A stretch of 64,000 bases of DNA from Alphaproteobacteria bacterium. Lineage in GTDB: Bacteria; Pseudomonadota; Alphaproteobacteria; Rhodospirillales; Rhodospirillaceae. Both the position numbers and the translations under genes were made by a program. The notes under the pieces are model-generated. The model saw only the letters and a program-made list of their open reading frames with translations, did no database searches and was not told the origin of the DNA. Location: contig QJZR01000014.1 in assembly GCA_003246625.1 (NCBI GenBank), forward strand, positions 133,219 to 197,218. The letters are read 5' to 3'. Positions 1-21,987 of this stretch are shown here, in pieces; the first letter of the stretch is position 1, and every line of letters begins with the position of its first letter.

Positions 1-1149
1 TTGTCCGTTCTGCCATCGGCTTCCATGGAAGTCGCCGCTGATGATCCGACGCAAACATGCACCGATTTGCCGTGAACGAGCCTCGACGGAGTGATTCTCT
101 CGGACCAGATTCCGACCCGCATCGGCGATCGATTGCGCTCGTGCCGGGTCTGAGGTTAACCAATCATGGGCGTCGAGAATGTTGCGCGCTTCGCAGGCGA
201 AGACGTTTCGACCGTGGGCGAAGCCCAGATGTCCAAAGCCTTCGCTGGGCTCGGCCACCAGGACGCAGCCGTTGGCCGGGATTTCGTAATATTTACGGAT
301 TGGCCAGCGTAGAATGCTGCCGCAACTGAAGCTGAAGCGCGATTGCCGCAAGGCATGGCGGAAGCCCCAGTGCAACAAATTCAGGGACCAATAGTGTGCA
401 TAGGGGTTAAGCCTCAGCTTATCGGCCGCGACGTAGGCATAGGGGAGATATTTGCCGGCTCGGGAAATGCCCGCGTGGTCGAGGATGTCGCGTGCTAGGA
501 CGCGGGCATCGTAGTTAGCCCCCAGCAGGCTCCAAGGATAGGGGCGCCGATCCAGTCGCCGGGTATGGAACTCGGGGGTGGACGCATATTGCGGGCAACT
601 GATGACGCGGTGTGCCTGCGAGATTGCGAAATCCCGGTAACGATCCGTCCAGTGGGTGAAGATGGAGGCGTTGACGCCGGGGGCATCGGGTGGCGTGGCG
701 CTCTCCTTGGGGGCGACGATTTCTTTCCCCCAAGTTATGAAGTAATCGGCGCACGCCTCGATCGCGTCGATTTTCTCGCTTGAGAAATTGTAGTAGTCGG
801 ATTGCATGAGAGCCATCAACCGCCGCCCCGGGTAGGCTTTCATGAAGCGCGCATATTCGCGTCCCAGTCGCATCAAGGTCCGGTCGAACGCACAGGCATG
901 ATTAATGAAATACAGCTTGCCGATTTTTTCTAGGCGGTCGAAATCCTGAATGGCGAATTCGTCCGCCATGATGAAGTCGAAGGGGCCGTTCAGGTCGACG
1001 AAGCGATCAAGCCCAATGTCGAGGTCGGTCTGACGGCTATAACCCGGGCCATATAGGGTCAGGTCGCCACATCCACCGAGAATGTCGCACAATAGCTCCC
1101 GTGTCGGGTCCATATAAGATACGTTGAAGGAGATATATAATATCTTCAT
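1..1149 (-). CDS. Glycosyltransferase-like protein (C-terminal glycosyltransferase family 1 / CgeB-like), partial, runs off window edge
   Basis: Manual minus-strand translation from ATG at 1149 is open for 383 codons to position 1: MKILYISFNVSYMDPTRELLCDILGGCGDLTLYGPGYSRQ...GCVLVAEPSEGFGHLGFAHGRNVFACE. Absent from the ORF track because it has no stop inside the window. Confidence 0.75.
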   Translation of the reverse strand, partial: MKILYISFNVSYMDPTRELLCDILGGCGDLTLYGPGYSRQTDLDIGLDRFVDLNGPFDFIMADEFAIQDFDRLEKIGKLYFINHACAFDRTLMRLGREYARFMKAYPGRRLMALMQSDYYNFSSEKIDAIEACADYFITWGKEIVAPKESATPPDAPGVNASIFTHWTDRYRDFAISQAHRVISCPQYASTPEFHTRRLDRRPYPWSLLGANYDARVLARDILDHAGISRAGKYLPYAYVAADKLRLNPYAHYWSLNLLHWGFRHALRQSRFSFSCGSILRWPIRKYYEIPANGCVLVAEPSEGFGHLGFAHGRNVFACEARNILDAHDWLTSDPARAQSIADAGRNLVRENHSVEARSRQIGACLRRIISGDFHGSRWQNGQ

Positions 1150-1150
1150 G

Positions 1151-2362
1151 TTAATGGCTTCTGATTTTGCGGCGGAGTCTTGCGTATCGCGCAACTAACT
1201 CGCTATAGACTTCTTGGTGCTGTTTCAGTAGAACTTCGCGGGAAAATTCCGTGCGAACGATTTCATTTGCGGCATCGGCCAATCGGTGGCACTCGTCCGG
1301 TTTAGATAATAAGCGCTCGATGGCGGTCGCCGTTGCCTGGATGTCCCGTGACGGGACAAGAAACCCGGTTCGGCCGTTCTGCACCAGCTCGGCTTGCCAT
1401 TCGGTGTCGTAGGCCACGGGGCAGACGCCATTCGCGCAGGCTTCGATCAGGCTGGCGCCGCTGAGTAGAGATAAGTAGATCGTGCTGCGCTGGTATAGGT
1501 CCCGGACCGCTTGGCCGTCGATGAACCCCAGCAGCGTGACACAATTTTCGAGGCCGTTTTCTTGTATCCGCCGTTCAAGGGTTTCTTTCTGGTCGCCGTC
1601 TCCGGCCAGCCTCATCTCGAAGGCGATGTCTCGGCTCCGCAAGGCGATGGCGATGTCGAGGGCGTCATGGATAAACTTTTGGGAACTCAGACGAGAGACG
1701 ATGGCGATGATTGGGCGTGCGGGGGATGGGCATGAAGACGGAGGGGCTTGTCCCGTTTTCGGGATTGGGACGATGTGGCGGAACAAGCGGAGGCATTCCG
1801 CCCGCGCGCCGTGCCGTCTTGCATACGCCGCGATATAATGACTGATGCAAAGGACCAGATCGGCGCGGCGTAATAGGCCTTTTTCGAGTTTTTGCGCCAA
1901 GGGGCGCGAACCGAACAGACGAGGGGCGCCACCTTCCGGGTCCAGTTCATACATCAGATCGTAGTCACAATGCAGGGACGTACAGAAAGGTCTCCCGCAT
2001 AATTTTGATGTAATAAACCCGATGAAGCCACAATAGTATGGGTCTTGGGATCTTATAAAATCGATGTTATTTGTCTTTGTTAATTTACAGCAGTGTCGGA
2101 TCACTACCAGTAAATGCCAAGCGAGCCGCAGCCACGACAGGGGGCGCCACGTTTCGGTCGTGGGGAGCGTGAACTCATCCAGACGAGCCGACGGAGAGAG
2201 AAACAGGGTTTGTTTCTGGCTGGCAAAAGGGTGAACGGTAATGGTTTCTTCCAGGAAACCATTCTCGTCCCTTTCGGAAATGTTATGAGCGACGCCCTTG
2301 CGGACCAGCGCTTCATAATCGGAGGGAACGATGAATAATCCCTTCAAACTGTTGCCCTTCAA
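1151..2362 (-). CDS. Glycosyltransferase family 4
   Basis: 403 aa; GT-B pattern with IAIVSRLSSQKFIHDALDIAIAL and SLLSGASLIEACANGVCPVAYDT. Confidence 0.85.
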   Translation of the reverse strand: MKGNSLKGLFIVPSDYEALVRKGVAHNISERDENGFLEETITVHPFASQKQTLFLSPSARLDEFTLPTTETWRPLSWLRLAWHLLVVIRHCCKLTKTNNIDFIRSQDPYYCGFIGFITSKLCGRPFCTSLHCDYDLMYELDPEGGAPRLFGSRPLAQKLEKGLLRRADLVLCISHYIAAYARRHGARAECLRLFRHIVPIPKTGQAPPSSCPSPARPIIAIVSRLSSQKFIHDALDIAIALRSRDIAFEMRLAGDGDQKETLERRIQENGLENCVTLLGFIDGQAVRDLYQRSTIYLSLLSGASLIEACANGVCPVAYDTEWQAELVQNGRTGFLVPSRDIQATATAIERLLSKPDECHRLADAANEIVRTEFSREVLLKQHQEVYSELVARYARLRRKIRSH

Positions 2363-2448: not shown

Positions 2449-3642
2449 CTATTTATCCTGCGTCTTGGGTGAGGCCTGTGATGTCACGTTTCCCATTTGG
2501 GCCAAAGGAAAACAGAACTTTACATAAAAACTTTCCGGCACCCGCCCCATTTTCGTGAGTGCGTAGAAGAGCGGGCGTAATTTCTCGAAGGTTTTCTTAT
2601 AGGTTGGGAATTCGTGCCAGGTTCGGATGGGCTGGGTCATCACCCGTTCGAATTCGTCGTCCGAGAATCCCAGCCGTTTCTTGACCAACTGAAGAATTTC
2701 GTCTTCCAGAAATGGTGGCTGGCGCAGGGCCTCCAATGCTTCGGCGCGGTCCATTTGTCCCGAGCGCACCTGTGCGGCAAAGCCGTTCAGCCTGAGATCG
2801 ATCCCGAGACGGTGGGGGATGAAGTAGCTGTGATAGAAAGCCGTGAAGCGGTTTTCCAGATGGTGGCCGCCATACCATTCCCAGCCGTAGGTGTCGGCCA
2901 GCATGCGTTTCGTCGCCGCTTTGTCGTAGTCCATGTAGTAAAGAGGCCGGATCCGTTTGATGGCGCGGAGGCCGCTCCAACGCAGAAAACGGGAAAGCGT
3001 CATGTTCGGGTAGGTCTTCATCGGGACGCGGCCGTATTGCTTATGAACCGAGGAGATGTATTTCCCGTCCATATAAAGCCAGCCCAAGGGGGAGACGCCT
3101 TCGGTGCGGAAAGAGTGGCCCTCGACCACGTACTTCAGGCCGTGCTTTTCTGCCGCCAGATACAGGGCAGAGATGAAGGCGATATCTGTGGGGGCTTCGA
3201 TGTCCGCGACCCCCGAGAGCATGAAGGCGCGATAAATATCGTCGTATTCCCGGTTGTCGACCACGTAGGTGGATAACTCGACCCCTAGTTTGTTCACCAC
3301 CTTATAAATATTCTGCGTGGCGATGGGGGAGTTCCAGGTGTTGTCGAAGTGCACGGCCAATGGGCGGACGTCCATTTCCACCAGTTTATGAAGTAGGTAC
3401 GAGGAATCGCATCCCCCGGATACGCCGACGACACAGTCGTATTTCTTTCCGCGTCCGGCCTGGCGCATGGCGTCGATCATCTTCTGGAGATAAGGCATCC
3501 CCTCTGGCCCATTGGGGTATTGCCGTTCCAGGGCATCATGCAGCCCGCAATAATTGCAGACGCCATTTTCGTCGAAACGTATGTTGGGCACCGTTTCGTC
3601 GAAAATGCAGCGCGTACATATCCGGTGAGTGCCGTTGTCCAT
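2449..3642 (-). CDS. N-acetyl sugar amidotransferase (WbpG-like), copy 1
   Basis: CTRCIFDETVPNIRFDENGVCNYC plus PP-loop VGVSGGCDSSYLL; WYGGHHLENR. Confidence 0.9.
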   Translation of the reverse strand: MDNGTHRICTRCIFDETVPNIRFDENGVCNYCGLHDALERQYPNGPEGMPYLQKMIDAMRQAGRGKKYDCVVGVSGGCDSSYLLHKLVEMDVRPLAVHFDNTWNSPIATQNIYKVVNKLGVELSTYVVDNREYDDIYRAFMLSGVADIEAPTDIAFISALYLAAEKHGLKYVVEGHSFRTEGVSPLGWLYMDGKYISSVHKQYGRVPMKTYPNMTLSRFLRWSGLRAIKRIRPLYYMDYDKAATKRMLADTYGWEWYGGHHLENRFTAFYHSYFIPHRLGIDLRLNGFAAQVRSGQMDRAEALEALRQPPFLEDEILQLVKKRLGFSDDEFERVMTQPIRTWHEFPTYKKTFEKLRPLFYALTKMGRVPESFYVKFCFPLAQMGNVTSQASPKTQDK

Positions 3643-3675: not shown

Positions 3676-5169
3676 TTATTCCGCAGGGTGGATACGGTAT
3701 AGGCTGTAGCGGCCCGCTGCCGCAAGGTAGTTCGAAGGAGGCAATCTCAACGCATCCGGCGAGACGTAATTTGTGTCCAGCAGCAGGCGATTGACGCTGT
3801 CATCCTTCGCGTAATCCGTCAGGTTCCGGCGGATGACCGGGAAGAACTGCTCCAGACGATCATCGAAGACATGGCTATGGGTTCCCCAATACACGGGACG
3901 GCCGGTGGCATAGGCGACCAGATCGCATAGGTGCACGGGAAGGCACATGACGATCGCTTCGGGGTCGTCCCGCAGGATCTTGAGCATGGTTTCCAGATCG
4001 GACGTGCGCAATCCCGCCTGCAGGGTTGCCTGGCTGCGCAGCAAGCGGGCAACCAGCCAATACTGGCGAACGGTCAACGCCAGTGCCAGGGCGGCGGCGG
4101 CCAGGACGATCGGTTCTCCGTATTGCGCCGCCACCCCCGTATAGGCCAGCGACGGTGCCAGGGCGAACTTAAAGTACTGACGTCCCTGGCCGATGCCTCG
4201 CAAGAACGGCAGCACATGAATGGCCGTTCCCCAGACGTAAACCGAGCCGACCCAGATCAGTAGGAAAGTTCCCCACGGAGCCGTGACCGGAGAGACCGTG
4301 GCGGCCCCCATTAACGGAAGGACGAAATAGTTCTGGTGCCCGACCTCCTTGACGAAGCTGAGGAGTGTCTTCGGCGTGCCGCCGGCATATGCCTCGGTAT
4401 GGGTTTCTCCGTCGCCATAGATCGGCGATTGCCGCACCATGTGGGCGCCCAGCAGGGGCCAGTTACGGTGCCAGAAGCGGATGATCGCGCGGTGGCCGTC
4501 CAGGATGCGCAGGAAACCTCGCGGCCACAGAATGAATGCTGCGGCATAGATGCCGATAAGCAGGTAGACCCAGCGCCACTCTCCGGTCGATGCGGCGAGA
4601 ACCGGCAGGGTGAACCACAATTGCTGCGCCGAGAGTTTGTGGCTGTAAAGCGTGATCACACCCACGATCACGGCCGCGACCATCCAGCCTTCGTGGTTCA
4701 TTGCCATCTGGGCGGAAATAAGAAAAGCGTTCAGCAGAAACAGCCCGAACGGACGAACGTTCAGGGCCGAGAATTCGTTCACCAAAGGGGGGGCCAAGGC
4801 ATAAGCGAGCATGGCGGCGGCGGCCAGGAGAGGCTGTCCTCCCAGGACGACAACCAGACCCCCGATCAACAGCGCGGAAAACAGATCGATGACGTGGTTG
4901 ATCAGCCAGTACCGTTTTTCCAGCCAAGCTTCCGGCAGAAGGGCGCATAAGATCAGGAAACCGGGGGGATACCATTGATCCTGTTCTTCCAGCAGAAAGA
5001 CCGGAGGCATGCGGATGGGAAGGCGTCGGCTTTTGCGGAGCTGTCGGGCGTTCATCAGAATGTTGAAGGCATCGCAGCCCTGGAAACGCCGCGGCCAGAT
5101 CGGGTACATGCGTGCGATCAGAAAGACGGCGACGGTAAAGACGGACACGACTGCCGATATCGCGATCAT
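3676..5169 (-). CDS. Polytopic membrane protein, putative GT39/ArnT-like glycosyltransferase
   Basis: Start trimmed to MIAISAVVSVFTVAVFLIARMYP (ATG 5169), 4-nt overlap with upstream HisF-like gene; many hydrophobic helices. Confidence 0.65.
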   Translation of the reverse strand: MIAISAVVSVFTVAVFLIARMYPIWPRRFQGCDAFNILMNARQLRKSRRLPIRMPPVFLLEEQDQWYPPGFLILCALLPEAWLEKRYWLINHVIDLFSALLIGGLVVVLGGQPLLAAAAMLAYALAPPLVNEFSALNVRPFGLFLLNAFLISAQMAMNHEGWMVAAVIVGVITLYSHKLSAQQLWFTLPVLAASTGEWRWVYLLIGIYAAAFILWPRGFLRILDGHRAIIRFWHRNWPLLGAHMVRQSPIYGDGETHTEAYAGGTPKTLLSFVKEVGHQNYFVLPLMGAATVSPVTAPWGTFLLIWVGSVYVWGTAIHVLPFLRGIGQGRQYFKFALAPSLAYTGVAAQYGEPIVLAAAALALALTVRQYWLVARLLRSQATLQAGLRTSDLETMLKILRDDPEAIVMCLPVHLCDLVAYATGRPVYWGTHSHVFDDRLEQFFPVIRRNLTDYAKDDSVNRLLLDTNYVSPDALRLPPSNYLAAAGRYSLYRIHPAE

Positions 5170-5939
5170 GGCGTGGAACGGGCCAGCATGTTTTCGAGGA
5201 ACTCGCGTGGCGGGAAGTTGATCAGAACCCCTCGCTCGGTTCCCGAATAGACGAACAAACTGCCCGCGGCGGCGGCGGATGCGCCGGCTTGCTTGATGGG
5301 GTCGGACAGGTCTAAGCGTTTGCCCGCGCCGCCGCAGGCAATGACGGGCAGGCTGGTCGCGGCGGTGACTTGGCGGATCAGGTCCAGGTCGTAGCCGCAC
5401 ATTTCACCGTCGCGGTCGATGGATTGCAGCAGGATTTCTCCGGCGCCGGCCTCGGTTAATTGGCGGGCTCGTTCTTGCGGGGTGATTTTCAGCGCGTGTT
5501 TTCCGTTGCGTACCTTGGTGTCGTAGCCGCCGAAGAGCGAGCGCTTGGCATCCAGGCTGCCGACCACGGCCTGTGCGCCGAATTCCCGGGCCGCGGCGGA
5601 AAGAAGGCTCAGGTCGCCACTCAAGACGGATCCGAGGACGACCTTCTCGACGCCCGAGCGGATGATCCGTTCGACCTGTTGCAGGTTGGTGATGCCGCCA
5701 CCATAGGCCAGCGGCACCCAGCATTCCTCGGCCAGGGTGGCGATGAGGTCGAAATCCGGCCCGTTTCCCGATGCGGTGGCGCCGATATCCAGCAAGGCGA
5801 TCTCGTCCACCTCGAACTGGTTGAACAGGTTGATGACGTTGACCGGGTCTCCGAGGTAGGTCTGCTTGCCGAAGCGGCGGGTTTTTACCATCGCTCCGCG
5901 GTTCAGCAGCAGGCACGGCATGATGCGGGGGATCAGCAT
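5166..5939 (-). CDS. hisF2: HisF-like cyclase subunit of acetamidino sugar modification (HisF2/WbuZ type)
   Basis: MLIPRIMPCLLLNRGAMVKTRRFGKQTYLGDPVNVINLFNQFEVDEIALLDIGAT...AYGGGI; HisF fold outside a his operon, beside WbpG-like genes. Confidence 0.85.
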   Translation of the reverse strand: MLIPRIMPCLLLNRGAMVKTRRFGKQTYLGDPVNVINLFNQFEVDEIALLDIGATASGNGPDFDLIATLAEECWVPLAYGGGITNLQQVERIIRSGVEKVVLGSVLSGDLSLLSAAAREFGAQAVVGSLDAKRSLFGGYDTKVRNGKHALKITPQERARQLTEAGAGEILLQSIDRDGEMCGYDLDLIRQVTAATSLPVIACGGAGKRLDLSDPIKQAGASAAAAGSLFVYSGTERGVLINFPPREFLENMLARSTP

Positions 5940-5949
5940 GGCGATTTCT

Positions 5950-7296
5950 TTAATTTGCTTGATGTGAGCATCGGCCGAACTTTCTTGCAAACGCGACGGC
6001 CCTCTTTTTTAGCTCCGGCTTATCGTCGAGTAAGAGGGCACCTTCCCCGTATGCGTCAATGAGCTTCTGGATGTTGGCGGCGATCCGCCGTTCCTCGCCC
6101 GCTGCGCCTTGAACATATTGTACGTCGTGAGGGTCGAAGAACCATTCTTCCGGCGCGTCTCCCGCGGCAAGGGTGAGCAGCCTGCGAGCGGTTGCGCGGC
6201 GGTCGCCGAATCCAATGAAGAAAGCCCGGGCGGCGGCCCCCATGCGATGACGGTATTCCGCATCGACGATCAATCGTTCAAGCGTGGGCTCGATTTCGTC
6301 GGGATGGGCGAAGACGGATGGCAGGGATGCCTCCTTGGGGATGAAACGGTCGAAAAAGTTCTTCCCATATCCGCAAACGACCACAGGTAGGCCAAAGCCG
6401 GCGGCCTCGGTGGCGAATACGGCGCCATGCATGTCGCTGTACAATTCGTCCACGACGATGTCGCTTCTTCCCAGTTCTTCCATGACCTCATGGTTCGGCC
6501 TGCCGGAGATTTCCACATAGTCTATTTTGTGGCCCTTTTGCTTGAGAGAGGCGATTGCGGCTCTGATTCGATCCGTTCCCTTCAGCAAGGGGGCCGATGG
6601 TGCATGCAGGATTCTGAGGGGGCGGTCAGAGGATTCGGGGTTGGCTTTCTCCGCGTCTCGGACGACCAGCCCGGGTTCAAGTTTTTTCTCGTCAACCACG
6701 ATCCCGATGATCTGGTAGATGCAGCACTTCCGGTCATGGTTCTGCCCGGAGAGGGGGTTATCAACGATGATGTCGGCGATCTGGTGGGCGTGGCGTACCC
6801 GTTCTTGCGTCGAGCGGACCAAACGCATCAGCTCTTCTGGGGATTCATGCGGTTTCTCGGGGCGGAAGAAGGGGGGGCGGGAGTCGCTGCCCTGAAAAAT
6901 CACGATGATTTTCTTGCCCAGTTTCCGGTAGAGCCAAATATCCAGATCCCGCGAGACGCCTGTCGACATTCCCGCCTTAAGAACGATGACGTCGTATCGA
7001 AGCGAGACCCAGGCCATCAGGAGAACCTGAGCGATCAGCCATTTCATGCGAAGGACAAGACGCTTAAGTGGCGTAAGCGCGTCGGGAGCCGCTTCAACCA
7101 TGGCTTCGTAGACGTCAATGTAGAAACGGACCGGCCAGTCGTTTTGCGAACGGTCCCAGCCGCCATTCAGGTCCGTTCCAAGACTCAGGAAGTCGGCCTT
7201 GCAGCCGATTTCCCGAAGGCCGCGCGTCAGGCACGAAAAGATCCCGGCGATGTCGATGGGGGCAATGAATACAGAGGGCTTTCTTTGCTTCTTCAC
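5950..7296 (-). CDS. Glycosyltransferase family protein
   Basis: 448 aa; GT-B-like C-terminal half: RILHAPSAPLLKGTDRIRAAIASLKQKGHKIDYVEISGRPNHEVMEELGRSDIVVDELY...GAVFATEAAGFGLPVV. Confidence 0.7.
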   Translation of the reverse strand: MKKQRKPSVFIAPIDIAGIFSCLTRGLREIGCKADFLSLGTDLNGGWDRSQNDWPVRFYIDVYEAMVEAAPDALTPLKRLVLRMKWLIAQVLLMAWVSLRYDVIVLKAGMSTGVSRDLDIWLYRKLGKKIIVIFQGSDSRPPFFRPEKPHESPEELMRLVRSTQERVRHAHQIADIIVDNPLSGQNHDRKCCIYQIIGIVVDEKKLEPGLVVRDAEKANPESSDRPLRILHAPSAPLLKGTDRIRAAIASLKQKGHKIDYVEISGRPNHEVMEELGRSDIVVDELYSDMHGAVFATEAAGFGLPVVVCGYGKNFFDRFIPKEASLPSVFAHPDEIEPTLERLIVDAEYRHRMGAAARAFFIGFGDRRATARRLLTLAAGDAPEEWFFDPHDVQYVQGAAGEERRIAANIQKLIDAYGEGALLLDDKPELKKRAVAFARKFGRCSHQAN

Positions 7297-7329
7297 GTAT
7301 TCATCTCCGGCAAAGGCGCTGGATCTCGT

Positions 7330-8475
7330 TCATTCGTTCGGGAAACAGAATTTAATGTAAAAGCTTTTGGGGACGCGCCCTGCCGCGACCAGCGGGGCGA
7401 AGAATGGGCGGAGAAGCTCGAACGTGGATTTGTAGTTCGGGAAATCCTTCCATGTTTTGAGCGGTTGATGCATGGCCGCATCGAACTGGTCGTCGTTAAG
7501 ATCCAGCCTCTTTTTCACAAGGTTAAGGATTTCCTCGGGGAAGTCGATGTCCTCACGGAGTTTGGCGAGACCTTCTTCGCGGCTGATTTGCTGGCTGCGG
7601 ACCATTGCCGCAGTGGATAGCTGGCGCAGATCGTTGCTCGTCCTGTGCGGCACGAAATAATCGACCCAGAAATTGCACGACCGGCTTTCGAGGTGATGCC
7701 CTCCGTACCACTCCCAGCCGTAGTCCTTGTTTAGGTCGTGCTTGACCTGTTCCTTGTTGTACGTGGTGTAATACAGAGGGCGTACGCGGCGGATGCCGTT
7801 CCATGCCACCCATTTTATGAATTTCCCGATGGTCATGAGCGGGTACGTCTTCATCGGCAATTTCCCATATTGCCGATGAACGGACTTAATGTATCGCCCG
7901 TCCATGTAATTCCAGTCGAGAGGGCATATCCCTTCCGTTCGGAAGGAGTGTCCCTCGAAAATATATTTCAGACCGTGCTTCGCCGCCGATCGGTAAAGAA
8001 CTGCCGCGAGGCCAAGGTCGTTCGGCGCTTCAAGGTTATAGGCTCCGGACACCAGAAAGGCCCGGAACATATCGTCGTATTCCTTCGAATCCACGACGTA
8101 CGTTTCCAGATCCACGCCGAGGCCGTTGACCATGCTGTATATGTTCTGTGTGGCGATCGGCCCATTCCAGGTGTTGTCAAAGTGTACGGCAAGTGGCTTC
8201 AGACCGAGTTCCACGGTTTTTTGGAGCAAGAACGACGAATCGCAGCCGCCGCTTACGCCGACGATGCAGTCGTATTTCTTTCCTTTTGCAGAGAGCCGGA
8301 CTTCGTCAGCCAGTTCACGCAATTTTACCATGCCCTCATCGCCGTCCGGATATATGGCGCAAAGTTCGTCATGCTGGTGGCAATAATTGCAGACGCCGTC
8401 TTTATCGAAGGTGATTCGAGGTACCGTGCTGTCATAGGTGCAACGCGTGCATATCTGCAAATTCTGGTCGGGCAT
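7330..8475 (-). CDS. N-acetyl sugar amidotransferase (WbpG-like), copy 2
   Basis: MPDQNLQICTRCTYDSTVPRITFDKDGVCNYC plus VGVSGGCDSSFLL; clearly paralogous to 2449..3642. Upstream residues in the track ORF look non-coding. Confidence 0.9.
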   Translation of the reverse strand: MPDQNLQICTRCTYDSTVPRITFDKDGVCNYCHQHDELCAIYPDGDEGMVKLRELADEVRLSAKGKKYDCIVGVSGGCDSSFLLQKTVELGLKPLAVHFDNTWNGPIATQNIYSMVNGLGVDLETYVVDSKEYDDMFRAFLVSGAYNLEAPNDLGLAAVLYRSAAKHGLKYIFEGHSFRTEGICPLDWNYMDGRYIKSVHRQYGKLPMKTYPLMTIGKFIKWVAWNGIRRVRPLYYTTYNKEQVKHDLNKDYGWEWYGGHHLESRSCNFWVDYFVPHRTSNDLRQLSTAAMVRSQQISREEGLAKLREDIDFPEEILNLVKKRLDLNDDQFDAAMHQPLKTWKDFPNYKSTFELLRPFFAPLVAAGRVPKSFYIKFCFPNE

Positions 8476-8510
8476 GGTGTCCTCAAATTGTGACCGCGTT
8501 CGGGGTCGTG

Positions 8511-9710: not shown

Positions 9711-9737
9711 GGGAACTCCATCGGCGGTCGACCGTCT

Positions 9738-12585: not shown

Positions 12586-12588
12586 CTT

Positions 12589-13138: not shown

Positions 13139-14239
13139 TTATCCTTTGTCAGCGCTATCCTGGGGCGAGGGGGCCGAAGCGGAATCGATCTGGTGCCGTA
13201 CCACCGAGAACGAGGCAGGCAGGTCCCTAACCAATTCGGGCATCCCGTATCCAGAGCACAGGCGGCAGATGTCGACAGCCCCCTGACGTTCCAGAATGGA
13301 GTGGCGGAAGTTACGGGCGGGTTTCCCGTTGAATACCCTGAGGACGCCATCCTCGAAGACGTTTCCGAGGATATGGTGGCCGTTGGGGTCGCGGCAGCAG
13401 GGAACGGCGTCGCCGTTCCAATTGATCTGCATCGAGTTCCATATCCAGATGCATTCGTTCTGGGGGACGACCTTGGGGCGCAGCTCGCCGCGTTCGAAGG
13501 CATCCTCATCGTAGAACCAGTATTTCCGGTCGCGCGGCAGATAGGCGTACGCTTCCGTCATGTTCCGGGCGCAGGGGTCGATGATGTTGGCGGTATCGGC
13601 GCCGATTTCCTTGGCCCACTTCAGGAAGGAAGCCACTTCGTGTTCATTGTGGCGCATGACGATCAGCCCGACGTCGATCCGTACGTTGCTGCCGGGATGC
13701 TTGCGGCGCTCCTCGATGAGTTCCAGCAGATTGGCGTGCGCCTTCTCCAGGCTCGTCCCGACCCGGTAACGCTGGTGGGTCTTTTCGGTCATGCCGCCCA
13801 GTTGGAAGCTGATTCGGTTGATGTCGGAATAGATAACGCCTTTGGCATCGACGAAATCGCCGTTGGTGCAGGTGTCGACCCAGATTCCCTTCGCCCGGGC
13901 GTAACGGATCATCTCATAGGCGTTCTTGTTCAGAAACGGCTCGCCCATGAAGTAGAAGAACAGAGAGTTGGTCCATCGTGCCGAGCGGTCGATGAAACGT
14001 TGGAAATTCGTGAGGTCGAGCATGCCCTTTCGTCGGGTCATCTCTCCCTTTCCGGTTTCGCAGACTGGGCAGCGGGCATTGCAGGCATTGGTGGGTTCTA
14101 TGGCGATATGCACCGGCGGCAACAATGGGCCGACCCGGTGCATCCGAGCCATGGCGGTGTTCCAGACCAGGGATGGCCATCCGCGACCACCCGCTCGGGC
14201 CATGGAGACGACGGTCTTGATTTTGTTCAGCGCGCCCAA
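13139..14239 (-). CDS. Radical SAM/SPASM domain protein
   Basis: CNARCPVC (CxxxCxxC) motif, SPASM-like WIWNSMQINWNGDAVPCCRDPNGHHILGNVFED...CRLCSGYG. Confidence 0.9.
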   Translation of the reverse strand: MGALNKIKTVVSMARAGGRGWPSLVWNTAMARMHRVGPLLPPVHIAIEPTNACNARCPVCETGKGEMTRRKGMLDLTNFQRFIDRSARWTNSLFFYFMGEPFLNKNAYEMIRYARAKGIWVDTCTNGDFVDAKGVIYSDINRISFQLGGMTEKTHQRYRVGTSLEKAHANLLELIEERRKHPGSNVRIDVGLIVMRHNEHEVASFLKWAKEIGADTANIIDPCARNMTEAYAYLPRDRKYWFYDEDAFERGELRPKVVPQNECIWIWNSMQINWNGDAVPCCRDPNGHHILGNVFEDGVLRVFNGKPARNFRHSILERQGAVDICRLCSGYGMPELVRDLPASFSVVRHQIDSASAPSPQDSADKG

Positions 14240-14241: not shown

Positions 14242-14535
14242 TCAGGTGCTTTCCTTGAACCAGGTTTCATGCGTTGCCAACGCCGCACTTAAGGCGTCGG
14301 AAAGGATGGCAATGGCATCGTTTTCATAACGGACGTCATCCAAAGACCGCTCTTCGATGAGGTGTTCCGTGCCAGAACCGTCAACCGCAGCGACGTCGAT
14401 CCCGCCCTTCAGGCAGCCGTCTTCTTCCCGAGCGTCCGGCGTCAACCGAAGTCGAAGGATGCCTTCGGCGGAGACGATGGCCAATTTCTGCCGGAGAGAC
14501 TCTAAAAGAGCAGGCGGAGCCGCGGAAACGGTCAT
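14242..14535 (-). CDS. 97-aa protein of unknown function, directly upstream of the radical SAM/SPASM gene
   Basis: ORF packed between methyltransferase and radical SAM gene; MTVSAAPPALLESLRQKLAIVSAEGILRLRLTPDAREEDGCLKGGIDVAAVDGSGTEHL... Confidence 0.65.
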   Translation of the reverse strand: MTVSAAPPALLESLRQKLAIVSAEGILRLRLTPDAREEDGCLKGGIDVAAVDGSGTEHLIEERSLDDVRYENDAIAILSDALSAALATHETWFKEST

Positions 14536-14570: not shown

Positions 14571-15581
14571 TTACTTTTTGTCTTTGCGGGCAATGATCGT
14601 GATCCCGGCATCTTCGACCACTTCGCGTTCGATGACGAGGCCTAATGCGTTGCTCCATTGCCGCACCTGGTCGGGGGTTTGACGGTGGGCATTCTGCGGC
14701 GTGTACCAGTCGTAATTCACGTGGTTCAGCTCATCCAGGTTCATGTCGGGATGGTGGAAGGCCTTGAATACGTGCCAGTAGACGAAACGCTGCAGGTCGA
14801 TGCGCCCCTTTGGAATTCCCAGAAGAGCAACGTCTTCGGGAACGTCGATTTCGACGTTCAACTTGCCCAGCGCCTGGCCCAGTTTGCTCAGGCTCATCAG
14901 AAGATCCCAGGCTTGCTCCGGAGGGACATCGCGTAGACGTTCCCGGATGTAGTCGTCGGTGAATTCGCGGATCGGTCCCTTGGTCTTGTAGACGTAGAAT
15001 AGAATGCGCCCCCCCGGACGCAGGTAGGAAACCACGGACGTCAGTGCGGTTCGTGTGTCGTCGCAGTGGTGCAGAACCCCTTCGGAGAAAATCAGGTCGA
15101 TGGATTCAGGGGCGAGCGGTAACCGTTGCAGGTCGGACTGGATGAAGGCGCCCTCCAGGCCGCGTTCGGCAAAGCGGGCACGGGCCACATCCACCGCCTC
15201 CGAGATGTCTGCACCCACATAGCGCAACCGCGGCAAGGCGTCCCCCCAGAGTTCGAGGGCGGAGAAGGCCGCGCCGCATCCCGCGTCTAGAAGCAAAGGC
15301 CGTTCCCCGTACTCGGAAAGCCATTCGGCGTGGGCAACGTCTCCATAGCGCTGAAGCAGCCAGGAATGCGCGGTGGCGGCCAGGGTTCCTTCATAGGTTT
15401 CCCGTTTCTGCCATTTGAACCCAAAGGTCTCGCGGGTTTGCCTTTGGGCCTCTGACGCCAGTTCTTCGGCGCGGAAGACGCCATTGCTTCTGACCAGAGT
15501 GACCCCATTGGCTTGGATGCACCCACCGTCATCGGGCAGCGGGCCGCCGAGAATGGAGGAGAACCAGGATGGTATCTTCAT
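14571..15581 (-). CDS. Class I SAM-dependent methyltransferase
   Basis: Start trimmed to MKIPSWFSSILGG (ATG 15581, ATGA overlap with HisH-like gene); LLLDAGCGAAFSALELWG, FSEGVLHHC. Confidence 0.82.
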   Translation of the reverse strand: MKIPSWFSSILGGPLPDDGGCIQANGVTLVRSNGVFRAEELASEAQRQTRETFGFKWQKRETYEGTLAATAHSWLLQRYGDVAHAEWLSEYGERPLLLDAGCGAAFSALELWGDALPRLRYVGADISEAVDVARARFAERGLEGAFIQSDLQRLPLAPESIDLIFSEGVLHHCDDTRTALTSVVSYLRPGGRILFYVYKTKGPIREFTDDYIRERLRDVPPEQAWDLLMSLSKLGQALGKLNVEIDVPEDVALLGIPKGRIDLQRFVYWHVFKAFHHPDMNLDELNHVNYDWYTPQNAHRQTPDQVRQWSNALGLVIEREVVEDAGITIIARKDKK

Positions 15582-16201
15582 CGACGGGCTTCCTTCAGAA
15601 AATTTTCCAATAGTTTCAGTCCGAAACGGTGGCTCTTCTCGGGATGGAACTGGACGCCGAACAGGTTGTCGCGCCGGATACCCGCGGCAAATCTTACGCC
15701 GTGTTCGGTGACGCCGTAGGCGTGTGCTGGGTTGTCCAGAGGGTAGTAGTAGGAATGGTTGAAATAGAAACGGCGTTCGGTCATTTCCGCATAGAGGGGG
15801 ATGTCCTCTGCCTCTTCGATGAGGTTCCACCCCATGTGCGGCACTCGGATCGGCTGGCCCCCCCCGTCTTCGGGGTGAAAACGGCGCAGTCGGCCGGGGA
15901 TCCAGCCGAACCCAGGCTCCAGGCCTTCTTCGCTGCCTTCGGTCATCAACTGCATGCCCAGACAAATCCCCAGCGTCGGGATGCCAGCACGGACACACTC
16001 GTCCAGGACCTGCCATAATCCGGCGTCTCGTATGGCGCGGACCACGGCATCGTAGCTTCCTACTCCGGGTAGGATCAGACATTCGGCCCGGGATATGGTT
16101 TCGGCGTCCGAGCCCACGGTCGCGCGGACCTGAAGCCGACGGAGCATGTTGGGAATGGCCCGGACGTTGCCGACGCCGGTGTTGACGACGACGATGTTCA
16201 T
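15578..16201 (-). CDS. hisH: HisH-like glutamine amidotransferase subunit
   Basis: MNIVVVNTGVGNVRAIPNMLRRL, LPGVGSYD, TLGICLGMQLM (catalytic Cys), QFHPEKSH. Confidence 0.9.
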   Translation of the reverse strand: MNIVVVNTGVGNVRAIPNMLRRLQVRATVGSDAETISRAECLILPGVGSYDAVVRAIRDAGLWQVLDECVRAGIPTLGICLGMQLMTEGSEEGLEPGFGWIPGRLRRFHPEDGGGQPIRVPHMGWNLIEEAEDIPLYAEMTERRFYFNHSYYYPLDNPAHAYGVTEHGVRFAAGIRRDNLFGVQFHPEKSHRFGLKLLENFLKEARR

Positions 16202-16794
16202 AAGGCCTTGCCAAATTGCAGGATGGGGGTATCGCCGTTGAATTCGACGTGGCCGAGAACCCGGGCGGGGGAGCCGCCGACGATGGTGAAATCGGGGACG
16301 TCCGCATTGACGAAGCTGTTGGCGGCCACCACGCAGCAGGTTCCGATCTCCGTTCCCGCGGCAATGATGCTTTGCGGGCCGATATAGCATTTATCGCCGA
16401 TGGAGACCGGGGCCTGTTTCATCCGGGACCTGCCACCGGAAAGGGCCCAGGTCACGGTATCGTGCGTATAGATGTGGACCCCGGCGGAGATCGAGCACCA
16501 GGCTCCTATGGTAAGGGGAGCGTGTGCGCCGTCCAGGATGACGTTGGGACCGACCCAGGTTTCGGGGCCCACGCGAACCGTTCCATAAACGAAGGCGCTG
16601 CCGTATATCGTGGCATTTTCGGCGAAGCCCAGGCTCCGTGCGCGATCTTTCCTGTCGGACAAGGCATCCTGAAGGGGGAGAGACCGGTCGAATTTCTCGC
16701 GCAGTTCCCGGGCCCGCGCGTCGAGGACCTCGCGCAGGCAATCCTGCCAGAGCCCCAGGGCTTCCGCATCGACGGCCATATTTTTTTCCGTCAT
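16198..16794 (-). CDS. Hexapeptide-repeat acyltransferase
   Basis: Start trimmed to MTEKNMAVDAEAL; ATIYGSAFVYGTVRVGPETWVGPNVILDG; VVAANSFVNADVPDFTIVGGSPARVLG. Confidence 0.82.
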   Translation of the reverse strand: MTEKNMAVDAEALGLWQDCLREVLDARARELREKFDRSLPLQDALSDRKDRARSLGFAENATIYGSAFVYGTVRVGPETWVGPNVILDGAHAPLTIGAWCSISAGVHIYTHDTVTWALSGGRSRMKQAPVSIGDKCYIGPQSIIAAGTEIGTCCVVAANSFVNADVPDFTIVGGSPARVLGHVEFNGDTPILQFGKAL

Positions 16795-18680
16795 GACAAG
16801 CGCTTCCATCCACCTTCGGCAAACAACGCCATCCACTCTTCCAGGACCAGTAAGGACCAGATCAGGAGACGGCGGTTCTCTCTTCCCTCCAGATGGTCCT
16901 CGACAAGATTATGGATCGTGGCGCGATCCAGGTAATCGTATATCAGCGCGGATTTCGAGAACAAGCGTTGGCGGACGTAATCGATGCTGGCTCCCTTGAA
17001 CCAGCTGGCGTCGGGGGCGGAGAAACCTTGTTTGGTGTCTTCTATGACCTGACGGGGGACATGCCGCTCCATTGCCATGCGGAGGGCCATTTTCCCGTCG
17101 CGGGTTTTTTCGAATTTCGGCGCGGTCTGCCCCTTGGAGCTCTGCTTATCGGGACGTGAGGTCTCGATGTTGTTGAGTTTCAGGCGGACAGGGATGCCCA
17201 TGGCAAAGTCGACAAGATCGTTGTCCAGGAAGGGAACCCGGCTTTCCAGGCTATGCGCCATCGACAGCTTGTCCTCCACGACAAGCAAGCCGTGAAGAAA
17301 AGTCTTGGCCTCGAAGTATAGAGAGTGGTTGATGTAATCGGCGGGTGTTTGGAACTGCTCGGCGTGGCGGGAGAAGACGTTGCGGAAAATATCCCTGGGG
17401 CCGACGTTGCGATAGGTCTCGGCGATCGGCGCGAACACATTGGGCATGGCATTCTGTGGCAGCAAGCGTTGCCAGAAGCCGAAGTACCGGTCGATGTAGT
17501 CGTCGAAATTCCGGTTGTCGGTGGCCCGGCAGTATCTCCAGGGATATCCACCGAAGATTTCGTCCCCCCCGGTTCCGGCCAGAACGACCTTGCAGAAACG
17601 GCTGGCCAAGTTGGCGGCATAATAGTTGGGGTAGGACTGACCGACGCGGGGTTCCTCCAAATGCCAAGTGACACGGGGCATCGCCTGTTCCATGTCGCCG
17701 GCCTTCAGGACCATTTCGTACTGTTGCGTCCCGAAGACGGAGGACATGTGCTCTGCCTTGCGCCGTTCGTCGAAGGCCAATTCAAGCCCCGAGGCGGAAC
17801 TCAGGTCGAAGCCTACGGTGAACGTCTTCATTCCCGGGAAGGTGCTGGCCGCCACCCCGGCGATGGAACCGGAGTCCAGCCCGCCGGAGAGATAGGCCCC
17901 GATTTCCACGTCGCTGATCATCTGCCGTTCGACGGCCTGAACGAACAGACGGTCGAGTTCCTCGATGTATTCCTCTTTTGCAAGCTGAACGGTGGGTTCG
18001 TGGAAATTATAGTCCCAATACCGGGTCAGCTTTTCTTCGCCGCCGAGCGGAATTTCCAGGATATGCCCGGCGGGCATGGTGAAAACTCCCTGGAAAAGGG
18101 TCCGTTCGGTAAAGAAATTCTGAAACGTCAGGTATTCGACCAGCGCTTCCTTGTTCACCTGAGGGCGGAAATCGGGCCGGGCCAGAAGGGCCTTGATCTC
18201 CGACATGGCGCAGAAGGAGTTGCCGATTCGGGCATAATATAAAGGTTTGACGCCATACCGATCACGGACCAGGAACAGGGTCTGCTTCTGTCGGTCCCAC
18301 AGGGCGAAGGCAAACATGCCGTTGAGACGGGGAATTAAGTCCGGTCCCCATGCCGCCCAGCCGTTCAGAACGACTTCCGTATCGGAGTGGGAGTTGAAGG
18401 CCATTCCCATGGCCTGTAGTTCCGCCTTGATTTCTTGGAAGCCGTAGATTTCGCCATTGTAGACCAGGACATATCGGCCATCACGGCTGCTCATCGGCTG
18501 ATGGGCAGCCGACGACAGATCGAGAATGGAAAGCCGTCGGTGGCCGAGCGCGACGGGGCCGTCCACGTGAAAGCCTTCGTCGTCGGGCCCGCGGTGGCTT
18601 AGCATCTCCGCCATCGCGCGCACCATCGGCGCCGAGCCGGGGCGTCCGTCGAGGTTGAGCGTGGCGACGAAACCGCACAT
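16791..18680 (-). CDS. asnB: Asparagine synthase (glutamine-hydrolysing) family
   Basis: MCGFVATLNLDGRPG (Cys2 nucleophile), YNGEIYGFQE, GAYLSGGLDSGSIAGVA. Confidence 0.93.
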   Translation of the reverse strand: MCGFVATLNLDGRPGSAPMVRAMAEMLSHRGPDDEGFHVDGPVALGHRRLSILDLSSAAHQPMSSRDGRYVLVYNGEIYGFQEIKAELQAMGMAFNSHSDTEVVLNGWAAWGPDLIPRLNGMFAFALWDRQKQTLFLVRDRYGVKPLYYARIGNSFCAMSEIKALLARPDFRPQVNKEALVEYLTFQNFFTERTLFQGVFTMPAGHILEIPLGGEEKLTRYWDYNFHEPTVQLAKEEYIEELDRLFVQAVERQMISDVEIGAYLSGGLDSGSIAGVAASTFPGMKTFTVGFDLSSASGLELAFDERRKAEHMSSVFGTQQYEMVLKAGDMEQAMPRVTWHLEEPRVGQSYPNYYAANLASRFCKVVLAGTGGDEIFGGYPWRYCRATDNRNFDDYIDRYFGFWQRLLPQNAMPNVFAPIAETYRNVGPRDIFRNVFSRHAEQFQTPADYINHSLYFEAKTFLHGLLVVEDKLSMAHSLESRVPFLDNDLVDFAMGIPVRLKLNNIETSRPDKQSSKGQTAPKFEKTRDGKMALRMAMERHVPRQVIEDTKQGFSAPDASWFKGASIDYVRQRLFSKSALIYDYLDRATIHNLVEDHLEGRENRRLLIWSLLVLEEWMALFAEGGWKRLS

Positions 18681-18682: not shown

Positions 18683-19837
18683 TTACAGTGCCAACGACAG
18701 GATTGCGTCGGCGACATAACGATAGTCGTCGGCGGTCATGCGGTTGTGCAGCGGAATGGCCATGGTGTTCCTTTCACAATCCCTGGCTCCGGGCAGATCT
18801 TCGGGATGATATCCGAAGCGGTCCCGATAATATCCCAGGGAATGAACGGCATGCGTCCCCGGGCGTGTCGCGACGCCCATGGTATGAAGCCGGGCCATCA
18901 ACTCGTTGCGGGGGAGCGGCGCGGTCTCGGGATCCACATAGGTGACGTAGGCCTGCCACGCATGGCGGCCCTCGTTTGGTTTCACCGGCAGGCGAAGCCA
19001 GGGGATTCCGGCCAAGGCGTCTTCATAGAAGGACGTCCAATGGTCGCGTTCGTCGATGAAGGCGTTGAGCTTGCCGAGCTGGACAAGCCCAATCGCGGCC
19101 TGAACATCCGTCATGCGATAGTTGAAACCCAACTCGTCGAACGAGGGCAACAGGTATGGCTGCGGCCCCGCATGGCGTTGTTCCTCCGAAAGGGAGGCGC
19201 CATGGCTGCGCAGGATTTGCGCGCGCTCGGCCAAGCCGTCGTCGTTGGTCGTGAGCATGCCGCCTTCGCCGGTGGTTATGGATTTGCGCGGATGAAACGA
19301 GAAACATCCGACATCTCCCAGTCCTCCGGCCGGGGTGCCGCAGTAGTCGGCGCCCGCGGCACAGGCGGCGTCCTCGACAATACGGACATGGGCGGGGATG
19401 ACCGCGCGCAACGCGTTCATGTCGGCGCATCGGCCGAACAGATGAACGGGAACGATGGCCTTCGTCCGTTCGGTCAATTTACTGGCTGCCGAGGCGGGGT
19501 CGATCGTATAGGTCGTGCGGTCGACGTCGCACAGGACCGGGGTCGCGCCGCAATAAAGAACGGCGTTGGCGGTCGCGATCCAGGTAAAGGACGGAACGAT
19601 GACCTCGTCGCCCGGTCCCACGCCGAGCGAGGCCAAGGCCAGATGCAGCGCCGTGGTGCACGACGTCGTGGCCAGGGCGTGACGGACTTGGTGCCGTTCG
19701 GCGAAAGCCGTCTCGAAGGCGGCGACCTGCGGCCCCTGCGTCAGCCACCCACTTTGCAGGGGTGCCCGGATGGCCTGCCACTCTTCGTCCCCGGTGGACG
19801 GCTGGGCGATTTGGATGATGCGTTTGGGAGCAGTCAT
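18683..19837 (-). CDS. DegT/DnrJ/EryC1/StrS family aminotransferase
   Basis: SGWLTQGPQVAAFE, VIVPSFTWIATANAV, EDAACAAGADY, SFHPRKSITTGEGG (PLP Lys). Confidence 0.93.
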   Translation of the reverse strand: MTAPKRIIQIAQPSTGDEEWQAIRAPLQSGWLTQGPQVAAFETAFAERHQVRHALATTSCTTALHLALASLGVGPGDEVIVPSFTWIATANAVLYCGATPVLCDVDRTTYTIDPASAASKLTERTKAIVPVHLFGRCADMNALRAVIPAHVRIVEDAACAAGADYCGTPAGGLGDVGCFSFHPRKSITTGEGGMLTTNDDGLAERAQILRSHGASLSEEQRHAGPQPYLLPSFDELGFNYRMTDVQAAIGLVQLGKLNAFIDERDHWTSFYEDALAGIPWLRLPVKPNEGRHAWQAYVTYVDPETAPLPRNELMARLHTMGVATRPGTHAVHSLGYYRDRFGYHPEDLPGARDCERNTMAIPLHNRMTADDYRYVADAILSLAL

Positions 19838-19839: not shown

Positions 19840-20832
19840 TCAGCGGACCTGTTGGCGGCGGGCTTCAACTTCGTGAATGTGGTTGGACCGCCATTCGATC
19901 AGGGCCTGGAGCCCCGCCCGCAAATCCTTCTGGGCGACAAAGCCGATTTCCTCGGCGGCGCGTTTGGGGCATCCGATCCGGTTGCGGACCAACGTGGCTT
20001 GGCTGCGCGGGGCGTATTTGATCGGGAGGCGGCAATCGGTCAGTTCGACCAGAAGTTCCGCCAGTTCCTTAAGCGAGGTGCGTTTGCCGGTGCCGACGTT
20101 GTAGAAACGGTCCGCCGTTTCCGCTTTCATGGCGCAGACGTTGGCGCGTCCGCAGTCCTCGACGGCAATGAAGTCGAAGGCCTCCGTTCCGTCGCCCAGG
20201 ATGGTCGGACCTTCGCCGCGGTCGATGGCATCCAGCATCTTCATGATCACGGCGATATAGGCGCCGTGATAGTCCTGGCGCGGGCCGTAGACGTTCATGT
20301 AGCGCAGCCCCACGTAGTTCAGTCCGTAACGGTAGTGCAGGGCGCGGGCCATCGCTTCGCCGGCGATTTTCGTGGCGCCGTAGAAGTTCTTGTTGTTGAA
20401 GGGATGTTCCTCGTCCATCGGTTCCCTGACGGCGTCCCCATAGACGGAGGCCGACGACGAATAGACCAAGCGAGAAACCTTCTTTTTTATGCAGGCCTCG
20501 AAGACATTGAAGGTGCCGCGGATGTTGACGTCGAAGGCCGAGCGGGGAAAATCGTGGCACTGCAAAAGCCATAAGGCGGCAAAATGAAACACGCCATCGA
20601 CGTCTTCCATGGCTTTTTCCAGGATGTCGGTTTGGCAGATATCTCCGCCGATGTCGAAGATTCTGGCGCGCGGATCTTTAAGCGCGTTGGCTAGGTTCTC
20701 GGTTCGTCCGCGGACGAAATTGTCATAGATGATGACCTCGCCGACGTCTTCTTTGAGCAGAAGATCGACGGTGTGGGAGCCGATCAAACCGGCGCCGCCG
20801 ATGACAAGAAGCTTTTTCCCTCGAATATCCAT
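19840..20832 (-). CDS. NAD-dependent epimerase/dehydratase (extended SDR)
   Basis: KLLVIGGAGLIGSHTVDLL, FYGATKIAGEAM, RYMNVYGPRQDY. Confidence 0.9.
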   Translation of the reverse strand: MDIRGKKLLVIGGAGLIGSHTVDLLLKEDVGEVIIYDNFVRGRTENLANALKDPRARIFDIGGDICQTDILEKAMEDVDGVFHFAALWLLQCHDFPRSAFDVNIRGTFNVFEACIKKKVSRLVYSSSASVYGDAVREPMDEEHPFNNKNFYGATKIAGEAMARALHYRYGLNYVGLRYMNVYGPRQDYHGAYIAVIMKMLDAIDRGEGPTILGDGTEAFDFIAVEDCGRANVCAMKAETADRFYNVGTGKRTSLKELAELLVELTDCRLPIKYAPRSQATLVRNRIGCPKRAAEEIGFVAQKDLRAGLQALIEWRSNHIHEVEARRQQVR

Positions 20833-20892
20833 GGTGTTACCCTTTTACGAGATGGTTTCCGTTTGTCCGGCGGCCGTTGGGGCGGCGCATGT

Positions 20893-21987
20893 CTATGACC
20901 AGAGTTCGGAAAAGGTAGAGATAATCGTCGGCAATGACCATTTGTCGATGATGCGGCATCGGGCTGCCGCGCCGAGTTTGGCTCGGGCTTTTCGTGGAAG
21001 CGTGGCGAGCTCACAGATCGCTTCCGCGAGGAGCCTTGGGGATTGGGTCGGAACGACGCGCCCGGTGTCGCCGATGATCAGGGCGGCATCCCCGGCATCC
21101 GTGGCGATGCAGGGAACACCCGTTGCCATGGCTTCGCCGAGGGCGTTGGAGAAACCTTCGCCATAGCGCGAACTCAACACCAGCAGGTCGATGCCGCGCA
21201 GCAAACGGGGAATGTCCGAACGTTCTCCTAACGCCGACAGGTGTCCACGCAAGGGGACCGGAATTCCCAGGTTTTCGGTGCCACGGCCGATCAGAACGAA
21301 GTGAGCCTTCGGACAGGCGGTTACGGCTTCGCTGGCCGCGGCGAAAAAGGTCGGAAAGTCCTTCTGCGGGCTGTAACGGGCGACCATGCCGATGATCACC
21401 TGATCATCGGCAATCCCCCATTCTGCACGCACGGCTTGCCGGTCCTCTTCGTCGGGGTGCCATTCGTCCGTGTCGAATCCGTTGGGGGTATAGATCCAGC
21501 GATGCGGACGATAGCCCAACCTTTCATGGGCTTCTCTCCCCGTATGAGAATTATGGGTGATCGCCCTGGGGCAATGGGACATGCGTGCAAGCAAATAGGC
21601 CAGCCAGCGGGTGGTGACGGCGTAGTCATGAAAATCGAGAGCCGAACAGCGTAGATTCCAGATGACGTTTCGGGTGCCCAGGCAGCAGGCTGCCGCCACG
21701 GTGCCCAGAAAGTCCGCATGGTAGAGCCAAGTCATGACCGTATCCGGATGGAGCCCGCGGATCAGCCTGACCAATCGCAGAAAGGCTCGCGGGGCGTCCC
21801 AAATCCGGTTCAGTCTGAGACAGTGGTATTCGACCCCGGCGTCGGTGAGGTCACGGTCGAAGAAGCCGCCGTCCATCAGGGAGACCACGACGTGCCGAGC
21901 ATCGCGGGATGAGGTGACGATGCGTGTCATCATCCGTTCGGCCCCGCCGGAACCTAGGCCGGTGATGATGTGAAGGACGGTGGTCAT
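20893..21987 (-). CDS. Glycosyltransferase family 4
   Basis: HIITGLGSGGAERMM, IIGMVARYSPQKDFPTFF, SSRYGEGFSNALGEAMATGVPCIATD. Confidence 0.92.
   Translation of the reverse strand: MTTVLHIITGLGSGGAERMMTRIVTSSRDARHVVVSLMDGGFFDRDLTDAGVEYHCLRLNRIWDAPRAFLRLVRLIRGLHPDTVMTWLYHADFLGTVAAACCLGTRNVIWNLRCSALDFHDYAVTTRWLAYLLARMSHCPRAITHNSHTGREAHERLGYRPHRWIYTPNGFDTDEWHPDEEDRQAVRAEWGIADDQVIIGMVARYSPQKDFPTFFAAASEAVTACPKAHFVLIGRGTENLGIPVPLRGHLSALGERSDIPRLLRGIDLLVLSSRYGEGFSNALGEAMATGVPCIATDAGDAALIIGDTGRVVPTQSPRLLAEAICELATLPRKARAKLGAAARCRIIDKWSLPTIISTFSELWS

Follow-up and report, generated by a model that had tools for sequence, protein, structure and literature searches.

For positions 1-21,987 of the window (the whole stretch of 64,000 nt analysed here, contig C13:133219-197218 of a genome of an Alphaproteobacteria bacterium of 2.69 Mb in 20 contigs with a completeness of 100%), an exchangeable polysaccharide locus is predicted in which two amidotransferases of the WbpG family, each paired with a gene cassette, would share one HisH-HisF2 ammonia donor and give sugars with acetamidino and uronamide groups. 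The probability of this model as a whole is put at about 0.6. The genes, their order, the slot shared with a congener and the family matches are observed features of this DNA, from which the chemistry is predicted.

The acetamidino system consists of WbpG1 (g03), WbpG2 (g07), a HisF2-type protein (g05) and HisH (g15). Both WbpG1 (216.6 bits) and WbpG2 (211.4 bits) passed the curated cut-off of the WbuX/WbpG model TIGR03573 (203.2 bits), and both keep the SGGCDS PP-loop and the paired CxxC motifs, with 59% identity to each other. The HisF protein g05 scored 311.1 bits against the AglZ/HisF2 model NF038364 (cut-off 310) and 176.1 bits against the canonical HisF model (cut-off 294.55). Its N-terminus is MLIPRIMPCLLLN, in which residue 11 is Leu instead of the cyclase Asp; we take position 11 to be the catalytic Asp in T. 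maritima HisF numbering, and g05 thus does not carry the residue of a histidine-type imidazole glycerol phosphate synthase. A canonical HisF/HisA pair is located on contig C1, indicating that the HisF and HisH of the locus are extra copies, in agreement with the first-pass annotation, which had placed them outside a his operon. HisH g15 matched TIGR01855 (196.8 bits) with its catalytic residues intact. Owing to the family matches, the loss of Asp11 in HisF and the intact HisH and PP-loop motifs, acetamidino formation on a sugar is the best reading of these genes, and as a prediction it is well supported.

A surface-polysaccharide slot between cysNC and htpG

The locus comprises 20 head-to-tail genes on the minus strand and a possible open reading frame of 97 aa at 14242-14535, matching the about 21 consecutive genes counted before. 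The 4-nt overlaps, previously described as several, were found at three gene pairs (g04/g05, g14/g15 and g15/g16), the other overlaps in the run are 17, 44 and 46 nt, and the gaps are mostly <40 nt. The genes are listed below, where L054 is a syntenic locus of another alphaproteobacterial genome, SDR stands for short-chain dehydrogenase/reductase and SAM for S-adenosylmethionine.

1-1194, minus strand: g01, glycosyltransferase-like (Glyco_trans_1_2; PF13524, 35.4 bits); 52% homologue in L054; frame open at the window edge
1151-2362, minus strand: g02, GT4 glycosyltransferase (PF00534, 93.7 bits)
2449-3642, minus strand: g03, WbpG1, N-acetyl sugar amidotransferase, cassette A type (TIGR03573, motifs, tree)
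3676-5169, minus strand: g04, multi-helix protein; no Pfam match; 54% homologue in L054
5166-5939, minus strand: g05, HisF2/AglZ-type ammonia-channel partner (NF038364; Leu at position 11)
5950-7296, minus strand: g06, glycosyltransferase (weak PF00534, 18.2 bits, below cut-off)
7330-8475, minus strand: g07, WbpG2, second N-acetyl sugar amidotransferase (TIGR03573)
8511-9710, minus strand: g08, C-methyltransferase of Methyltransf_23/14 architecture (PF13489, PF08484)
9738-10547, minus strand: g09, extended SDR, RmlD-like reductase/epimerase (PF01370, 82.3 bits; TIGR01214, 49.6 bits)
10584-11579, minus strand: g10, LegB-like SDR, cassette B (TIGR04180, 190 bits, below cut-off 475; STSEVYG motif)
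11563-12585, minus strand: g11, Gfo/Idh/MocA protein of UDP-GlcNAc 3-dehydrogenase type, cassette B (NF040723, 247 bits, under the cut-off of 450)
12589-13131, minus strand: g12, WbpD/WlbB-type 3-N-acetyltransferase, cassette B (PDB 3mqg, 135.5 bits)
13139-14239, minus strand: g13, radical SAM/SPASM protein (PF04055, PF13186; CxxxCxxC); 70% homologue in L054
14242-14535, minus strand: open reading frame of 97 aa, possibly a small gene; neither a family match nor a homologue among the fetched loci
14571-15581, minus strand: g14, SAM methyltransferase (PF08241, 66.6 bits)
15578-16201, minus strand: g15, HisH-like glutaminase (TIGR01855; catalytic Cys and HPE kept)
16198-16836, minus strand: g16, hexapeptide acyltransferase (PF00132)
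16791-18680, minus strand: g17, AsnB-like amidotransferase of WbpS/eps_aminotran_1 type, cassette A (TIGR03108, TIGR01536; Cys2, SGGLDS)
18683-19837, minus strand: g18, DegT aminotransferase, ArnB/perosamine synthase-like, cassette A (PDB 8sng, 3bn1, WbpE)
19840-20832, minus strand: g19, SDR, cassette A (4-epimerase-type motif SSSASVYG; PDB 6dnt, WbgU, WbpP)
20893-21987, minus strand: g20, GT4 glycosyltransferase that opens the run, adjoining htpG (PF13692, 81.7 bits)

The limits given in the first-pass annotation held in part: the run is present at 1-21,987, but it is truncated there and continues in the same direction for ~9.6 kb past position 1. This extension carries seven further genes encoding a sulfotransferase, an ABC flippase, an LpxD-like acyltransferase, a methyltransferase fusion with a deacetylase-like N-terminus (as read from its sequence), two GT4 glycosyltransferases and a second AsnB. 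It is bounded by divergent cysD and cysNC, and the opposite boundary of the run is htpG (22,013-23,941). The cysNC-htpG slot measures 31.6 kb, about two thirds of which are contained in the window, and the G+C content of the locus is 58.6% compared to 68.9% in the remaining window. In a congener (G208), cysNC and htpG likewise flank a single region, here of 44 kb and filled differently, with an ABC transporter, more than one gene each for AsnB and methyltransferases and further glycan-type genes, but with no WbpG and no gene close to those of the window locus. WbpG was searched in four congeners and was found in none of them. With the same slot differing in the congener and the lower G+C content, the cysNC-htpG region has the pattern of a horizontally exchanged surface-polysaccharide locus. 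This setting also bears on a proposed role of the genes with a nucleotide or secondary metabolite as substrate instead of a glycan. The folds of HisF/HisH, AsnB and radical SAM proteins do serve other pathways, but here glycosyltransferase, flippase, sulfotransferase and sugar-nucleotide SDR genes lie in the same run, the slot of the congener is polysaccharide-like, and the names of the HisF2 and WbuX models refer to sugar modification, making such a role very improbable.

Among the remaining genes, g04 is a probable polymerase or GT-C glycosyltransferase; its AlphaFold model, built from a two-row alignment, is nearly all helix at low confidence (pLDDT 40).

Cassette enzymes and possible precursor supply

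The gene types named in the first-pass annotation (two WbpG-like amidotransferases, AsnB, a WbpD-like transferase, DegT and three SDRs, all extended) were all found, and the assignment of g12 as the WbpD-type 3-N-acetyltransferase was retained. For g11 and g18, the finer labels were changed. The protein g11, previously called WbpB-like, had PDB 7bvj as its best structural match (150 bits) and, among the family models, matched that of the archaeal UDP-GlcNAc 3-dehydrogenase (NF040723), while WbpB was missing from its matches down to 1e-12. The DegT aminotransferase g18, previously read as WbpE-type, scored 265 bits to an ArnB-type enzyme (8sng), 257 bits to perosamine synthetase (3bn1) and 147 bits to WbpE, with PseC as the best NCBIfam match. 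The WbpB of the genome (364 bits to PDB WbpB) lies elsewhere, next to a WbpD-like gene and a WbpE (C13:48,054-49,178, 354 bits to WbpE), in a WbpB-WbpD-WbpE operon at C13:46,489-49,178 (L147 7490-10179), separated by ~75 kb from the closer end of the locus. This WbpB and this WbpE served as positive controls for g11 and g18, respectively, and both earlier labels were rejected.

A triacetamido-arabinose pathway as in Psychrobacter, considered because of the ArnB-like DegT, was set aside: the publication located on it describes no decarboxylase step, and g19, as read from its sequence, has no decarboxylase-motif Glu.

A look for homologues of WbpA and WbpI just beyond position 1 had been suggested, and neither is there. 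Contig C11 encodes a TviB/WbpA-like UDP-GlcNAc 6-dehydrogenase with a score of 462.9 bits, short of the equivalog cut-off (592), and a genome-wide search for PF02350, the family of WbpI-type 2-epimerases, gave no match in this 100% complete genome, while 11 of 14 control genomes matched. Because no PF02350 epimerase is present, the ManNAc3NAcA-type product of a WbpA/B/E/D/I route, proposed in the first-pass annotation, is not expected. UDP-GlcNAc3NAcA (gluco-type) can be made from genes of the cell outside the locus. In Pseudomonas aeruginosa O5, the WbpG/HisH2/HisF2 acetamidino system operates together with WbpA/B/E/D/I. The locus shares with it a WbpG-family amidotransferase, a dedicated HisH and HisF and a WbpD-type acetyltransferase; it differs by two WbpGs for one HisH/HisF pair, by WbpA/B/D/E-like genes that lie outside the locus, by the lack of WbpI in the genome, and by the presence of AsnB and an ArnB-like DegT. 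The shared genes and the WbpA/B/D/E-like genes elsewhere in the genome would be in favor of an O5-like route in which an acidic sugar of ManNAc3NAcA type receives a 3-acetamidino group, but without PF02350, with g18 and g11 being other than WbpE and WbpB and with no WbpA in the locus, this route is quite unlikely.

The absence of PF02350 also concerns an amidinated nonulosonic acid (5-acetamidino legionaminic or pseudaminic acid), for which g10, g18 and g16 would make the 4-amino precursor. The LegB-like g10, the PseC match of g18 and a NeuB homologue on another contig point in this direction, but this NeuB is the only one in the genome and belongs to a separate glycan locus on C12, and the legionaminic route requires a PF02350 2-epimerase (LegG), so that such a product is hardly probable. 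The C12 locus (L148, C12:148000-167500, at 4225-12654) is a second glycan locus in which the NeuB homologue and a DegT were confirmed by search and Gfo, SDR and methyltransferase genes were read from sequence; it possibly serves flagellin glycosylation.

For cassette A (g19, g18 and g17), the AsnB protein g17 had TIGR03108 as its best family and also matched TIGR01536 (433.3 bits, above the cut-off of 267), with the Cys2 glutaminase residue and the SGGLDS synthetase motif present. WbpS, an AsnB of the TIGR03108 family, was shown by deletion to be required for uronamide in P. gingivalis (PMC7468200), and formation of a uronamide by the WbpS-type g17 is predicted to be likely. Of the reading in the first-pass annotation, a surface-glycan locus with an acetamidino-forming system and a probable uronamide synthase of WbpS type are supported. 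The description of the polysaccharide as acidic was not supported: a carboxylate is lost on amidation and a positive charge is gained on amidination, and a residue with both groups would be neutral to cationic. Any acidity would stem from unamidated uronates or from sulfate, which the sulfotransferase together with cysDNC could supply.

For the radical SAM protein g13, homologues with 54-59% identity were found in three other alphaproteobacterial loci, whose fetched stretches show no WbpG; a pair of these loci also carry MT14, AsnB17, a hexapeptide transferase and an ABC gene. Because of these loci, g13 seems to belong to the glycan backbone rather than to amidination. In a genome of the same family (G018), a radical SAM homologue (L190 1334-2371) is broken by a TAG stop, which suggests a decaying copy.

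Cassettes A and B across WbpG loci

A comparison of the locus across genomes, proposed with the first-pass annotation, was performed by scanning GTDB genomes with a WbpG alignment, and 79 loci were obtained. Near WbpG, HisH was present in 72 loci, HisF in 70, DegT in 65 and AsnB in 27. Two cassettes recur. Cassette A, consisting of SDR19, DegT, AsnB, often a hexapeptide transferase, HisH, HisF and WbpG, was found in 12 of the 79 loci from seven phyla; in L194 the gene order is WbpB-WbpD-WbpE-SDR19-AsnB-DegT-WbpG-HisH-HisF, and several further loci with cassette A have one or two of these WbpB/WbpD/WbpE genes directly upstream. Cassette B consists of WbpD, Gfo, the LegB-like SDR10, DegT, HisH, HisF and WbpG, with SDR10 in 26 of the 79 loci. 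In 29 of the 79 loci, a g06-like gene follows WbpG on its downstream side at a distance of no more than 3 kb. The combination of genes, described before as not recognised, is not unique, since AsnB, WbpG, HisH, HisF and DegT recur together in at least seven phyla and a cluster from Sphingomonas LM7 has been published (PMC11340318).

Association tests were performed over the 65 loci of at least 14 kb. SDR10 was present in none of the 17 loci with SDR19 and in 24 of the 48 loci without it (Fisher p 9e-5), and AsnB17 accompanied SDR19 (Fisher p 1.6e-5); both are trends, the first towards mutual exclusion of SDR19 and SDR10. A possible chemical cause of the exclusion, which we infer, would be that the C6 oxygen required by a uronamide is lost through the action of a 4,6-dehydratase.

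The window has both cassettes, with g19, g18 and g17 (cassette A) and g10, g11 and g12 (cassette B) beside WbpG1 and WbpG2. Both cassettes were found in only one further locus, that of G297 (L145, L054 and L146; metagenome-assembled genome Alphaproteobacteria OFTM110); its synteny with the window extends across almost the full locus, and it has a single WbpG, closest to WbpG2. In G297, g08 and g09 of the window have no counterpart (that of g08 being absent from the syntenic L054), extra DegT genes are present, and formyltransferase-like and WbpI-like genes were read from the sequence. In the WbpG tree, WbpG2 is sister to the WbpG of L054 (100/86), L086 branches next, and WbpG1 lies outside (97/79). 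Two WbpGs with one HisH/HisF pair were also found in L095 and L196, an arrangement that is uncommon but not unique. In L195 (8704-11055), two partial WbpG frames beside a full-length one look like a decayed tandem copy.

Several observations weigh against the two-cassette model. Independent pairs on the WbpG tree kept the direction of the cassette associations without reaching significance (median p 0.0625 for SDR19 with AsnB17). The clade of both WbpGs also contains L096 and L052, and the assignment of WbpG2 to cassette B depends on synteny with L054, which has one WbpG, indicating that a second is not needed for that glycan. For g17, the score to TIGR03108 (433.9 bits) is under the cut-off of 816.9. 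The SDR g19 is epimerase-like, which does not account for the keto substrate that g18 would need in cassette A, and no enzyme for the 3-amination required by g12 was found in the locus.

The same data bear on a variant of the model, otherwise unchanged, in which a single acetamidino sugar would be made because WbpG1 and WbpG2 share one target residue or are redundant. Their 59% identity within one 21-row clade, the single WbpG of L054 and the single HisH/HisF2 pair are consistent with this, whereas the PP-loop and paired CxxC kept in both proteins, the grouping of WbpG2 with the L054 protein instead of WbpG1, which argues against a fresh duplication, and the recurrence of two WbpGs with one pair in L095 and L196 are not; we give a single sugar somewhat less than an even chance. 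The full form of the two-cassette model, in which the two fused cassettes and one HisH-HisF pair would yield two different amidinated sugars, one of them also a C6 uronamide, in a cationic or zwitterionic polymer with two acetamidino residues, is tentative, with the odds clearly against it.

Side observation elsewhere in the window: at 38000-42000 there is a strong negative AT skew with ~73% G+C, and no repeat array accounts for the skew.

Proposed pathway and related systems

In the proposed mechanism, HisH (g15) would split glutamine on HisF2 (g05), which is without the cyclase Asp11, and the ammonia would go to both WbpGs, converting N-acetyl groups of nucleotide sugars to acetamidino groups. 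WbpG1 would work with cassette A (the SDR g19, the C4-type aminotransferase g18 and the WbpS-like AsnB g17) towards a uronamide-bearing amino sugar, for which the precursor UDP-GlcNAc3NAcA would come from the WbpA-like gene and the WbpB/D/E genes elsewhere in the genome. WbpG2 would work with cassette B (the LegB-like SDR g10, the 3-dehydrogenase-type g11, the 3-N-acetyltransferase g12 and the radical SAM protein g13). The glycosyltransferases would build the unit, the ABC transporter past position 1 would flip it, and the sulfotransferase may sulfate it.

In Methanococcus, AglX/Y/Z carry out an acetamidino modification. The HisF of the locus passes the AglZ/HisF2 cut-off and the Gfo protein g11 resembles the archaeal model NF040723, but the setting here is a bacterial surface polysaccharide locus and not an N-glycan pathway. 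Compared to the uronamide synthases WbpS, WbqG and PGN_1234, g17 has the full-length AsnB fold and TIGR03108 as its best family, yet below the curated cut-off. In Sphingomonas sp. LM7, a cluster (RS19205-RS19310) encodes a nucleotide sugar dehydrogenase, an AsnB-type protein, an aminotransferase, an acetyltransferase, an MviM dehydrogenase, an SDR, WbuX, HisF2 and HisH (PMC11340318); these are the same gene types as in the window, but one WbuX is listed and the dehydrogenase lies inside the cluster. T. forsythia has a glycan cluster with asnB and a glycan with acetamidino pseudaminic acid (PMC6120980). In Vibrio vulnificus YJ016/CECT 5198 and Pseudoalteromonas rubra, an acetamidino sugar (L-GalNAmA) and a 2,3-diamino glucuronamide were chemically proven in one polymer (PMC3210612). 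The comparison with these polymers concerns their product chemistry. Among the papers searched, none pairs the words 'acetamidino' and 'uronamide', although PMC3210612 reports the two groups for a single polymer under different terms. The acetamidino and uronamide chemistry is therefore already known, and the new part is the merged architecture with two amidotransferases and one HisH-HisF pair, which joins cassettes that did not occur together in the 79 loci surveyed.

Acetamidino and uronamide groups alter the charge of the bacterial surface. The AsnB-SDR-DegT-HisH-HisF-WbpG cassette, present in at least seven phyla and tending not to co-occur with the LegB-like cassette, would provide a rule for predicting acetamidino-uronamide sugars from genomes, and the window is well suited to testing it, since it combines both cassettes with a single ammonia donor and two amidotransferases.

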